Of a stretch of 64,000 bases of DNA, positions 53,722 through 58,717 are shown piece after piece (position 1 is the stretch's first letter; every line of letters begins with the position of its first letter). The stretch spans positions 248,001-312,000 of the forward strand of contig CAIRYG010000010.1 in assembly GCA_903882745.1 (NCBI GenBank). The letters run 5' to 3'. Position numbers and translations under genes: made by a program. This DNA comes from an uncultured Gemmatimonadota bacterium (lineage in GTDB: Bacteria; Gemmatimonadota; Gemmatimonadetes; Gemmatimonadales; Gemmatimonadaceae). A model generated the notes under the pieces. It worked only from the letters and a program-made list of their open reading frames with translations. It did no database searches and had not been told where the DNA came from.

Positions 53722-54213
53722 TCACTGGAGGACGGGCAATCCCGTGCGTCCACCCACCACATCGGCACGGACCGGCAGCCCCACCTTGTTGCGGACGGCC
53801 GCTTCGGTCAACAGCAGATCCGAGAGCTTCACACCCTCGAGCACTTCGTCGATCCGATGCTGCAACATCATCCAGACGGGACGCACACTGCACGAATGCG
53901 ACGACGAGCAGCGTTCGCTGTCCACAGGGTGGGTCTCGCAGTGCAAATCGAAGGTCACCAACTCCGCGGCGGCGATGATTTCGCGCACTGAAATCTCGGA
54001 GGCCGCGCGATCGAGCATGTAGCCCCCTTTCGCGCCGCGGGTGCTCGTGACGATCTCCGCGCGCCGGAGTCGCAGCAGAATCTGCTCCACGTAATCCCCA
54101 GGGAGCTTTTCTTTGGCCGCGATGTCGCGCCCCGTGACAGGCCCGTCGTCGGCCCGCTTCGCCAAATGCAGCGCGCAGATCACGCCATACTCAGCCCAGG
54201 TAGTTATGCGCAT
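53722..54213 (-). CDS. Rrf2-family transcriptional regulator with a three-cysteine motif
   Basis: The 163-aa protein starts MRITTWAEYGVICALHLAK, the Rrf2 winged-helix opening, then VEQILLRLRRAEIVTSTRGAKGGY (recognition helix and wing). A loop with cysteines spaced C-x9-C-x5-C (in HCETHPVDSERC and SHSCSVR) resembles IscR/NsrR iron-sulfur ligation. I start at the ATG at 54213; the frame extends 84 codons upstream without Rrf2 similarity. Likely an iron-sulfur or NO sensor, but no target operon is adjacent. Confidence 0.88.
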   Translation of the reverse strand: MRITTWAEYGVICALHLAKRADDGPVTGRDIAAKEKLPGDYVEQILLRLRRAEIVTSTRGAKGGYMLDRAASEISVREIIAAAELVTFDLHCETHPVDSERCSSSHSCSVRPVWMMLQHRIDEVLEGVKLSDLLLTEAAVRNKVGLPVRADVVGGRTGLPVLQ

Positions 54214-54256
54214 ACCGGAGGATACCCGATTCGGCGAACCCGAACAAGGCGAGCGG

Positions 54257-55054
54257 TCAGGGAGAGGTCGGTGTGGGGATCTCGAACGTCGAGCGGATGT
54301 TGATGAATGAGGTGGCATCCGACCCGCGCGTGACGACCGTTCGCAGACGCTGAAACCGCGTGCTGCGGGCCGTGATATTCCCCGCGGCCCACTGGGCAGC
54401 GAGTGCCGCGGGAACGGTGCCGGCGCCGTCGTCGACAAAGTCGCAGAGGATTTGTGAATTCGCAACGGTCGGCACGCCCGTGCCGTCGTTGAAGATCAGC
54501 GACACGATCATGGCCGCACCAGAGGCAACGGGGGCCCAGGTGAGCGTGAGCGCCTGGCCAGCGGCGGGAGGATTCACGGCCGACATCGTGAACGCTTCGG
54601 CGGTCTTCCCGAACACGGTCGACGTTGGGAAGCCGGACAGCTCTCCCAAAATCGAGAAGGTGACGGTGTCGCCCGGCGTGAAGGCGAGCCCCGCGACGCG
54701 GCCGCTGTAGGTACCGTCGACGGTTGTCGCGCGCTTGAGCGTATCGAGCGCAGTCTTGATCGTGGTCACGACGCCAGAGCCACCACCAATCACACTCGCG
54801 GTGTTGTAGTTGGTGAGCGGGTACGGCGCGATTTGACAGGTGTCGGTGGCGCTCGCCGCGGAACTCAGCACGAACGACCCGGCGCGATAAAAGTTCACGG
54901 ACGGCGCTGTTGTGTAGCCGCCTGCCTTTGTCCGCGCATTGAGGTTGATCATCGCCAGCGGCGAACCGGACTCGGCGGCTGTGCTTCCCTTACATGACGC
55001 GACAAGGGGGAGCGCGAGGACGACGGCAAGCAGAGGAACGAGACGACGCATCAT
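54257..55054 (-). CDS. Putative lipoprotein, possibly DUF4397-like
   Basis: A 265-aa secreted protein with signal RRLVPLLAVVLALPLVASC (lipobox VASC), then strand-rich sequence with INLNARTKAGGYTTAPSVNFY. That segment resembles one DUF4397-type repeat, but I am not certain. ATG codons at 55054 and 55051 are both possible starts; the frame's first start codon upstream is TTG. Function unknown. Confidence 0.7.
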   Translation of the reverse strand: MMRRLVPLLAVVLALPLVASCKGSTAAESGSPLAMINLNARTKAGGYTTAPSVNFYRAGSFVLSSAASATDTCQIAPYPLTNYNTASVIGGGSGVVTTIKTALDTLKRATTVDGTYSGRVAGLAFTPGDTVTFSILGELSGFPTSTVFGKTAEAFTMSAVNPPAAGQALTLTWAPVASGAAMIVSLIFNDGTGVPTVANSQILCDFVDDGAGTVPAALAAQWAAGNITARSTRFQRLRTVVTRGSDATSFINIRSTFEIPTPTSP

Positions 55055-55557: not shown

Positions 55558-56198
55558 GCGCGCTTCACCCGTGCCACACCGTTCAAAAATGGATTGGATC
55601 GGAGTTCCTCACCGATCGTCGTCGATGGGCCATGACCGGGATGCACCGCCAGTTCTGGCGGCAACGTGGCCATCCGTTCCAACGAGCGCTGCATGGCCTC
55701 GGGGTCGCAGCCTGGAAGATCGGTACGTCCGATCGATCCGGCGAACAGTAGGTCACCGCCGAAGATGGCGCCTTCGCCAACGAATATCACATGCCCTGGC
55801 GCATGCCCTGGTACGTGCAGCACATCGAACGCCAGCGCCCCCACCGTGAGACGCATCCCCTCGGACAACTCGCCATCCACGGGATCAGGCTGCTCAAAGG
55901 GAATGCCGTAGCGCGCTGCTTGCGACGCGCCGCGCTCGAAGAGCGGCTGGTCGAGCGGATGCATGAGGACCGGCACAGGCCAGCGACGACGCACACCGGC
56001 AATGCCGCCGATGTGATCGAGATGCGCGTGCGTCAGCCAGATCGCGTCGAGAGTCGCCCCCGATTGCTCGAGGAGCGCGAGCAGCACCTCGGGCTCATCG
56101 CCAGGATCGACGAAGACGGCCCGATGTGCGCTCGGATCAACGATCAGCCAGCTGTTCTCTTGAAACGGGCCGACCGTCGCAGTCGCGACATGCATCAC
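55554..56198 (-). CDS. Metallo-beta-lactamase-fold hydrolase (glyoxalase II-like)
   Basis: The 214-aa protein has the metal motif THAHLDHIGG (HxHxDH), then VLHVPGHAPGHVIF and FAGSIGRTDLPGCD, typical of the short glyoxalase II-like/YcbL subgroup. Metal ligands are complete. The first start codon is GTG, with ATG one codon later, both overlapping the trxB stop. Probable thiolester hydrolase; the substrate is unproven. Confidence 0.88.
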   Translation of the reverse strand: MMHVATATVGPFQENSWLIVDPSAHRAVFVDPGDEPEVLLALLEQSGATLDAIWLTHAHLDHIGGIAGVRRRWPVPVLMHPLDQPLFERGASQAARYGIPFEQPDPVDGELSEGMRLTVGALAFDVLHVPGHAPGHVIFVGEGAIFGGDLLFAGSIGRTDLPGCDPEAMQRSLERMATLPPELAVHPGHGPSTTIGEELRSNPFLNGVARVKRA

Positions 56199-57178
56199 GC
56201 GCCGCGCACCAACATCTGAACGGGATCTGGCGCCGGATGTCCATTTTTTCGGGCGGTGAGAAACTTCTCTACCGCGATGGCCGCAGTCGTGGCATCACCC
56301 ACGGCCGTCGTGACTTGACGGGTGAGCTGCACGCGCACGTCGCCAGCGGCGAATAGGCCCGGAATCGAGGTCTGCATGTTGGCATCGGTGAGCAAATAGC
56401 CGGCGGCGTCGTGCTCCACATGCCCCTCAATGACACCGGTGTTTGGCTTGAAGCCGACGAAAATAAAAATTCCCGTCGCCTCCATCTCACGCGAGGTATT
56501 GGTCGGGAGGTGCTTGATGCGCGCGTGCGTCATCAGTCCGTCGACGCCGGCGATCTCCTCGATCACGGTGTCCCAGATCACTTCGATCTTTGGATTCGCG
56601 AACAGTCGCTGCTGCACAATCTTCGAGGCGCGGAATTCGTTACGGCGATGCACGAGGTAGACCTTCGCCGCGTACCGTGTGAGGAAATCGGCCTCCTCAC
56701 AGGCGGCGTCACCGCCGCCGACCACAATAATGGTGTGCCCCTTGAAGAAGGCGCCGTCGCAAATCGCGCAGTACGACACGCCCTTGCCGGCATACTCGAA
56801 CTCACCGGGCACCTCGAGCTTGATGGGCGTTCCGCCGGCAGTGATGATCACCGCTGGCGACCGATGGATGTCGCCACTTTCGAGCAGTGTCTCGAACGTG
56901 CCGTCATCTACCTTCTTCACCTTTTCCACACGCGTGAACGGGCGGATATCGGCGCCAAACTTCGTCGCGTGCGCGGCAAATTTCTCGGCGAGCTCGGAGC
57001 CGAGGACGTGCTCGAACCCGATATAGTCCTCGATCACTTCCGTGTTGAGCAGCTCTCCGCCGGGAAGGCCCTGTTCGAGCACGACGGCGTTGAGCATTGA
57101 ACGGCCAGCGTACATGCCGGCACACATTCCGGCCGGGCCCGCACCGATGATGACGACTTCATGGTCAAAGACTGCCAC
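56195..57178 (-). CDS. trxB: Thioredoxin reductase
   Basis: The 327-aa flavoprotein has VVIIGAGPAGMCAGMYAGR (FAD), the redox pair Cys137-Ala-Ile-Cys140 followed by Asp-Gly, VVGGGDAACEEADFLTRY (NADPH), and a C-terminal GLFAAGDVR. It reduces thioredoxin with NADPH. The start is GTG with CAGGA upstream. Confidence 0.95.
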   Translation of the reverse strand: MAVFDHEVVIIGAGPAGMCAGMYAGRSMLNAVVLEQGLPGGELLNTEVIEDYIGFEHVLGSELAEKFAAHATKFGADIRPFTRVEKVKKVDDGTFETLLESGDIHRSPAVIITAGGTPIKLEVPGEFEYAGKGVSYCAICDGAFFKGHTIIVVGGGDAACEEADFLTRYAAKVYLVHRRNEFRASKIVQQRLFANPKIEVIWDTVIEEIAGVDGLMTHARIKHLPTNTSREMEATGIFIFVGFKPNTGVIEGHVEHDAAGYLLTDANMQTSIPGLFAAGDVRVQLTRQVTTAVGDATTAAIAVEKFLTARKNGHPAPDPVQMLVRGA

Positions 57179-57210: not shown

Positions 57211-57978
57211 TCACCCCGCGAGAGCCGCGGGGGAACCACCCACCCGCAGAACCCCGAGCGCCCCGTGGCAGTTTGACACCGTTCCGACCAAGATTCGGAC
57301 CGCGGGCGCGCCCGCCCTCCCCTCCACCGTACCCGCAACGATCGCATCGGCGTCCTGGATCGCGCGCACGTCCACCATGCCAACCCCGTACGTGCGATGC
57401 GTACAATGGAGCACCGCGACAGCATCCAGGTTTGGGGCGGCTGCGGCGGTCCGAGACATGTCCCAGTCGCGAAGCCCTCGGGTGTGGGGGCAGATGCGCG
57501 GCTCGATGCAGTTCACGGGGCACATCCACTCCGCGAAGCTCACGTAGCGAGAGGCGTCATCGCCAACGCGTTGCCAGGGCACGCCCTCGAGTGCGCTGGG
57601 CGCTTCGATTGCCACGGCGGAGGCCGAGTAGCGATCGATGGCGCGGTCTCGCAGCCAGTGCAGGAAGAGGTGCGGCATCAGCGGGGACGGCACGATTGCG
57701 TCGTGCGCGTCAGCCGGCGTGGCGAGAAATTTTTGCATAAAGGGCGCCCACTCCGATTCGACGAATCGAAGGTCGGTCGCCGCTTCTCGGGCAACAGCGC
57801 AGGCGGCGTCTCGATCCACCACGATCAGCTCCCGAATGCGGACGGCCCCACGCTCGCGCGCGCGTCGTAGCTGCCGCACATAGTACGAGCCGTAGCAGCC
57901 ACCGCCGACAATCACCACGCGACCAAAGATGATCGGCGCGGGCGCTGTGGGCTCAGCGCGCGCCGTGTCGTCCGCCAT
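57211..57978 (-). CDS. Unrecognised Rossmann-like protein with a conserved-looking cysteine cluster
   Basis: From the ATG at 57978 the 255-aa protein has a dinucleotide-binding start (RVVIVGGGCYGSYYVRQL, residues 20-37) and an acidic residue after the second strand (VVDRD). A later cluster EWMCPVNCIEPRICPHTRG holds Cys153, Cys157, Cys163; Cys192 and Cys237 follow near histidines. This could bind an iron-sulfur cluster or zinc. I do not recognise the family. It overlaps the 3' end of the SDR gene by 26 bp and lies upstream of trxB, so a redox role is plausible but inferred. Confidence 0.7.
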   Translation of the reverse strand: MADDTARAEPTAPAPIIFGRVVIVGGGCYGSYYVRQLRRARERGAVRIRELIVVDRDAACAVAREAATDLRFVESEWAPFMQKFLATPADAHDAIVPSPLMPHLFLHWLRDRAIDRYSASAVAIEAPSALEGVPWQRVGDDASRYVSFAEWMCPVNCIEPRICPHTRGLRDWDMSRTAAAAPNLDAVAVLHCTHRTYGVGMVDVRAIQDADAIVAGTVEGRAGAPAVRILVGTVSNCHGALGVLRVGGSPAALAG

Positions 57979-58717
57979 CCACGAAGAGCAGTTGCCCAGC
58001 GACGTAGGGCGCCGTGAGCAGGTAGCGCACGGCGCCGGCGACGTCGTCGGGAGTCCCGATACGGCGCAGTGGCGTGGCGTCGGCGAAACGCCGTTGTTCT
58101 TCCTCAGGCCAGTTCGGCGGCGCCAGCACCGCCCCCGGGGCGACGCCATTCACGCGCACCTTTGGGGCGAGCGCCGCAGCGAGCGCGTGCGTCATCGACG
58201 CCACGCCGGCCTTGGCCAAGCTATGTGGCATGAAGGCCGGCCAGGACTCGAACGCCATGTGATCCGAGATATTCACAATGGCGCCCCCTGCCTCGGGCAT
58301 CGCCTTCGCCGCTGCGAGGGCGAGAAAGAAGGGCCCGCGCAAGTTCAACGCGAAGACCTCGTCCCACTGGGCGACGGTGAGCGTGTCGAGCGGCGTGCGC
58401 CGCATCGACGCCGCGGAGTTCACAAGCGCGTGCAGCGTCCCGAACCGTGCGACCATCGCTGCGACGAGCACATCGGGCGTTGCCGGGTCGCCGAGGTCTC
58501 CCTGCACGGCGAAGGCTTCGCCCCCCGCGGCTTCAATCGCCGACACGGTCGCAGCAGCGCCACCGCTCGAGCGATGAAAGTGGACACCAACCCGAGCCCC
58601 TTCAGCGCCGAGCGCGACGGCGATGGCTTGACCAACGCGCTGCCCCGCACCGGTCACCAGCACGACGCGGCCCTGCAGCGACGTGCCGATCGAGGTTCCG
58701 ATCGGTGCCGCGGTCAC
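57953..58717 (-). CDS. SDR-family protein lacking the usual catalytic tyrosine
   Basis: A 254-aa short-chain dehydrogenase-like protein. The cofactor motif VTGAGQRVGQAIA (with Arg, as in pteridine reductase FolM/PTR1) is intact, as are NSAASMRRTPL and the serine in IVNISDHMAF. The YxxxK catalytic position reads His-Ser-Leu-Ala-Lys, so the tyrosine is replaced by His. The C-terminal GQLLFVDGGR is normal. The GTG start overlaps the PHP gene stop (GTGA). It may be an atypical reductase or have lost activity. Confidence 0.85.
   Translation of the reverse strand: MTAAPIGTSIGTSLQGRVVLVTGAGQRVGQAIAVALGAEGARVGVHFHRSSGGAAATVSAIEAAGGEAFAVQGDLGDPATPDVLVAAMVARFGTLHALVNSAASMRRTPLDTLTVAQWDEVFALNLRGPFFLALAAAKAMPEAGGAIVNISDHMAFESWPAFMPHSLAKAGVASMTHALAAALAPKVRVNGVAPGAVLAPPNWPEEEQRRFADATPLRRIGTPDDVAGAVRYLLTAPYVAGQLLFVDGGRHGAR

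Follow-up and report, generated by a model that had tools for sequence, protein, structure and literature searches.

A conserved family of small bacterial Rossmann proteins with a four-cysteine set and a possible metal site

The described proteins closest to the one studied here are homospermidine synthase, homoserine dehydrogenase, the N-terminal domain of saccharopine dehydrogenase and the TrkA-N/KTN domain. In such Rossmann folds, an acidic residue at the end of the second β-strand marks binding of the NAD type. The protein P0001, encoded in the window (the whole stretch of 64,000 nucleotides analysed here), resembled these proteins in its GxGxxG motif, in the acidic end of strand 2 and in the fold of its first half. 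However, no sequence match to them was found, the structural alignments covered 67-116 residues at Z scores of 5.1-6.5 among the 50 VIA matches listed, and the second half of P0001 alone reached Z scores of at most 4.3. Flavoproteins of the thioredoxin reductase type (TrxB and ferredoxin-NADP reductase 2) were common neighbours of the family gene in the phylum of the window, but they are proteins separate from P0001. Deltaproteobacterial proteins named “potassium transporter” or “NAD-binding” presumably carry CPxxCPEP...C and C-x-CHG after a Rossmann start, a layout that would resemble that of P0001; an approximate query for them gave one plasmid match at E 1.

An earlier note on this DNA had described an unrecognised Rossmann protein at 57211-57978, with Cys153/157/163, Cys192 and Cys237, that adjoined trxB and overlapped an SDR gene. 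The list of open reading frames and the translation confirmed the frame and these cysteines, and seven cysteines were present in total (28, 60, 153, 157, 163, 192, and 237). Both adjacencies were also correct: the gene started 26 nt within the upstream SDR gene (overlap 57953-57978), and 32 nt separated its stop codon (57211) from the start of trxB (57178). The features are collected in Table 1. A scan of GTDB contigs, which used exact peptide patterns and was thus limited to close relatives, revealed relatives at 46-85% identity in 14 loci, 13 assigned to Gemmatimonadetes/Gemmatimonadaceae/Gemmatimonas and one to Acidobacteria. The dN/dS between P0001 and its closest relative, L001, was 0.115; the remaining 20 pairs among seven genes gave values of 0.16-0.31, with the distant pairs near saturation. 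The P0001 gene is under purifying selection.

Table 1. Positions in the window of the P0001 gene, its conserved residues and the two adjoining genes
Feature	Position	Strand	Basis
P0001, coding sequence (255 aa), four-cysteine Rossmann protein	57211..57978	-	ORF and family evidence
GGGCYG dinucleotide-type loop with C28, residues 25-30	57889..57906	-	91/91; C28 missing in L149 and L159
H103, invariant His after strand 4	57670..57672	-	91/91; invariant in A5
C153-P-x2-C157-x-E-P-x2-C163 cluster	57490..57522	-	91/91; invariant in A5
C192, variable	57403..57405	-	80/91
H194, nearly invariant	57397..57399	-	91/91; Leu in L150
C237-H238 pair, invariant, turn into the last strand	57265..57270	-	Alignments and AlphaFold model
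SDR gene, upstream, FolM/pteridine-reductase-like, GTG start	57953..58717	-	Context only
trxB, thioredoxin-reductase-type flavoprotein gene, downstream, with CAIC	56195..57178	-	Context only

The protein was indeed unrecognised by the libraries searched. Pfam, NCBIfam and PHROGs all lacked a match to P0001 at E≤10; PHROGs was searched with P0001 only. No significant match was found among PDB sequences, where the profiles A1 and A4 gave nothing at E≤10, A3 one sequence (E 1.6) and A5 two (E 1.5). When 30 members were scanned singly, the matches were all weak in Pfam (best E 0.0016; DAO, NAD_binding_8, TrkA_N and ApbA among them) and weak and scattered in NCBIfam (best E 0.0088); these are generic nucleotide-binding or chance matches. 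Four divergent members had no match below E 0.02 to a profile of the Pfam or NCBIfam type. The SDR superfamily profile did not match P0001 at E≤10, and the neighbouring gene matched adh_short at 1.9e-40. A profile search, which the earlier note had proposed as a check, gave no clear match to any known family without metal, and no known metal-protein family was matched by P0001 or the scanned members in the profile and PDB sequence searches. No relatives were found in viral contigs (ten candidate loci checked, best E 0.19), in phage sequences or on plasmids (one match at E 10 covering 21% of the query), and none of the publications listed by literature searches concerned the family, as judged by titles and abstracts. 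The family to which P0001 belongs is real and undescribed, and its members are small bacterial proteins; what is new is a Rossmann protein whose kind has no name in these libraries and whose second half is distinct.

A whole-genome search revealed the gene in 140 of the 395 sampled genomes of the phylum (100 of 286 good genomes, 41 of 138 genera), and since at most six candidates per genome from the first look were scored, the gene may have been missed in some of the genomes counted as negative. A broader profile gave identical counts. This distribution, the relatives at 46-85% identity and the dN/dS of 0.115 led us to regard P0001 as a real gene. By hand count, the 140 genomes comprised 81 from the family of the window, 57 from a second family within the order and two from other parts of the class; when 99 relatives of one of these two outlying members were searched, the two themselves were the only matches. 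In a second phylum (that of G402, probably Acidobacteriota), matches were obtained in 7 of 297 genomes and subsequently in 9 of 396, and divergent members were retained in six of the 396 (G413, G441, G454, G466, G623, and G787). G402 itself was dropped, as its copy (L003) was a near-twin of the Gemmatimonadota copies with the same neighbouring genes and is perhaps a binning error. G468 was dropped as a C-terminal fragment with C237 replaced, and G747 as a different, FAD-type protein. The family spans a large part of one phylum and scattered genomes of another, with a sharply conserved set of cysteine and histidine residues. Some loci departed from the usual gene layout. L151:7406-8038 held an apparently decayed C-terminal family fragment in which C237 was replaced, overlapping a cysteine-rich frame on the opposite strand. 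In L047 (6877-8079) the reading frame of the gene continued into a response-regulator receiver domain, and the two were separate frames in L046. A DUF309 gene was fused to the family gene in L048 (5880-7235; Pfam, L048 only), and in some members of the second family (L093-L095, L097-L101, and L103) one was seen by eye between the family gene and trxB.

To describe conservation, a set of 91 non-redundant fetched members was used, from which identical or contained copies had been removed and in which L003 was included. Among the positions identical in all 91 were G25-G27, C28, G30, D55, W77, H103, and W108 in the first half and C153, P154, C157, E159, P160, C163, P164, R170, W172, H194, S235, C237, and H238 further on. 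Less fixed were C60 (88 of 91), C192 (80 of 91) and H191 (57 of 91); C192 changed five times on the tree by parsimony, and at least three of these changes were forced by supported branches. In alignment A5, with 23 rows of which five were divergent (24-35% identical to P0001), C153, C157, C163, C237, H238, H103, D55, and E159 stayed invariant, C28 was lost in L149 and H194 was Leu in L150. The sixth divergent member, L159, read by eye and unaligned, was without C28 and kept the four cysteines, H103, H194, and H238. Because they were invariant both in the 91-member set and in the divergent members, C153, C157, C163, and C237 together with H103 and H238 were taken as the core. The invariance of the cysteines, which the earlier note had proposed to check, held for C153, C157, C163, and C237 in all 91 members and all 23 rows of A5, and failed for C192. 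Conservation of these four across two phyla supports a putative redox or metal site, of whose core C192 is no part. Two conserved cysteines had been missing from the list of the earlier note, namely C28, which was lost in two divergent members, and C60.

AlphaFold2, run on 15 sequences, gave a model with a mean pLDDT of 82.3 and a pTM of 0.81, in which the first half was Rossmann-like and the second half consisted of strands and helices. Block means of pLDDT were 91-96 over residues 21-90, and 52 and 54 across the cysteine loop (residues 151-170). Such low confidence is what a loop that binds a cofactor might show when the alignment is shallow, and is no evidence by itself. A strand (16-24) followed by a helix (28-42) was modelled around the GxGxxG motif, and strand 2 ended in D55, which occupied the acidic position of the NAD type. 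In Foldseek, neither the whole model nor the second half had a match under E 0.001; the first two rows for the whole model were ketosynthases (E 0.002-0.004, TM 0.28). The best VIA match was homospermidine synthase, with a Z score of 6.5 over 89-91 residues, in a range that the tool calls middling, and many Rossmann-like folds (NAD-binding domains, N-domains of ATP-grasp proteins, and methyltransferases) followed at 5.1-6.3. The Rossmann start proposed from the sequence was therefore supported by the GxGxxG motif, D55, the confidently modelled half and VIA matches that were mostly Rossmann-like. The second half predicted alone had a pLDDT of 81.8, and its VIA matches (Z up to 4.3, mainly thiolase-fold enzymes, rmsd about 4 to 8) were rejected as chance. 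The alignment with the KTN structure 1lss extended from residue 19 to residue 238 (97 residues, Z 5.3, rmsd 3.9), and weak matches to the TrkA_N profile appeared in 4 of the 30 members (best E 0.034), both of which would suit a ligand-sensing regulator of the TrkA-N/RCK type that binds NAD and metal and has no catalytic function. However, these matches were weak and no better than those to many other folds, no channel or transporter gene lay directly beside the family gene among the neighbours identified in the contexts read, and such a regulator seems highly improbable to us.

The explanation that we prefer, with a probability of about 0.5, is that P0001 is a stand-alone Rossmann protein of the NAD(H) type with a four-cysteine metal site, either Fe-S or zinc, near the cofactor. 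The predicted metal site would lie in the second half and be held by C153, C157, C163, and C237. It is proposed because of the CP-x2-C-x-EP-x2-CP...CH arrangement, in which a cluster of cysteines and one distant cysteine form what looks, from the sequence, like a ligand layout. On this layout only, an iron-sulfur cluster would be the most likely occupant, with zinc as the second choice. D55 suggests NAD(H) as the cofactor in preference to NADP(H), and closeness of the metal site to the cofactor is suggested by the positions of H103, after strand 4, and C237, in the turn that joins the last two strands; H238 and H103 may both lie towards the end of the fold that would bind the cofactor. P0001 would probably perform a redox step, with its metal site next to the dinucleotide; such action is the most likely but also the least supported step of the proposal, and P0001 could then be an NAD(H)-dependent oxidoreductase or a protein of electron transfer or redox sensing. 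Against this explanation stand the searches in which no known metal-protein family matched, the neighbourhoods and co-occurrence counts, which revealed no stable redox partner and no pattern, the middling VIA score and the loss of C28 and H194 in some divergent members. If an Fe-S cluster does sit by NAD, the protein would connect NAD(H) with the cluster compactly and without a flavin. A bolder form of this idea, that P0001 founds a family of NAD(H) metalloproteins in which an Fe-S cluster of the second half faces the nicotinamide and exchanges electrons with NAD(H) directly without a flavin, is unlikely. Four invariant cysteines with CP motifs fit zinc as well as Fe-S, and P0001 might instead be a conventional NAD(P)-dependent enzyme, a dehydrogenase or isomerase, whose second half is stapled by a structural zinc and whose chemistry takes place elsewhere. 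The invariant H103 and H238, the latter beside C237, and the presence of C28 in most of the nucleotide loops suggest an active site instead, and we hold a purely structural zinc to be possible but rather doubtful. If the metal is zinc, the family still has a clear set of residues to mutate.

The neighbourhood of the gene was compared in the 71 of the 91 loci with long flanks, the 20 loci with flanks of 1.5 kb being left out. Among the loci with sufficient flank, the SDR gene lay directly upstream in 61 of 67, preceded by a PHP gene (62 of 64) and odhB (55 of 57), while trxB (66 of 69) and an MBL-fold gene (61 of 67) lay downstream; other genes may intervene between the family gene and trxB. 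The frequency of trxB, together with two members elsewhere in the class whose gene directly followed that of a ferredoxin-NADP-reductase-like flavoprotein without CxxC, could point to a thiol-disulfide enzyme or redox sensor with cysteines re-reduced by the adjacent thioredoxin reductase system. The flavoprotein of these two members scored below the TRX_reduct cut-off, and the closest PDB entry to that of L047 was 2zbw (named thioredoxin reductase), followed by nine named ferredoxin-NADP reductase. However, the whole block odhB-PHP-SDR-trxB-MBL was conserved, and trxB was therefore not singled out. In addition, in 20 genomes listed of the 255 without a match in the phylum, an SDR match followed the PHP gene in 18, and in 15 trxB came directly after the SDR gene at a spacing of 43-288 nt. 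In 3 of the 18 SDR loci trxB would lie past the fetched stretch; L122 had PHP and then trxB without SDR, and L128 gave a partial PHP-domain match only. A profile scan found no remnant of the gene behind SDR in the 18 stretches (three matches, at E 0.76-0.96, fell short of inclusion). This is most simply explained if the family gene alone was cleanly lost more than once, and the trxB/SDR neighbourhood looks like inherited synteny.

In the second phylum the neighbours differed. Names read from the translations were glyS-like and proline-dehydrogenase-like for L146-L148 and hydroxyacid-dehydrogenase-like and queA-like for L150. A DUF4760 gene (L149:6797-7225) directly preceded the family gene of L149; by eye, a similar one stood before that of L159, and thioredoxin-like and Rieske-like frames were present near the L149 copy. 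Adjacency to a flavoprotein of the thioredoxin reductase type was not seen there. A partnership with trxB or SDR as a general feature was therefore rejected, and trxB, which the earlier note had offered as a functional clue, is not a general one. No stable partner gene of the family emerges. Although the thioredoxin-like frame near L149 would suit it, re-reduction by a thioredoxin reductase system is quite unlikely.

The upstream SDR gene (57953-58717) was correctly called atypical, as His takes the place of the usual catalytic Tyr in an HxxxK motif. This His was kept in 109 of 110 loci with an SDR match, many of them duplicates or near relatives; in the remaining locus, the stretch that aligned did not show the motif. 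The syntenic trxB was of two types, 61-94% or 35-41% identical to that of the window (56195-57178), as observed in L010-L012, L054, L055, L060, L061, and L065, and the downstream copies examined kept CxxC. Further downstream in the conserved block, an Rrf2/IscR-like frame (53722-54465; name from the translation) with a three-cysteine stretch was present in many loci. Co-occurrence was followed in hand-picked genomes of the phylum, 26 with the gene and 20 without. No pattern was found with the three functions tested: molybdopterin oxidoreductase was present in 46 of 46 genomes, NIR_SIR in 3 of 26 with the gene vs 2 of 20 without, and a photosynthetic reaction centre in 3 of 26 (one genus) vs 0 of 20. 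Molybdopterin-oxidoreductase matches with one in-frame TGA were seen at G000:C12:22624-23901 and in at least 14 other genomes, and are perhaps selenocysteine formate dehydrogenases.
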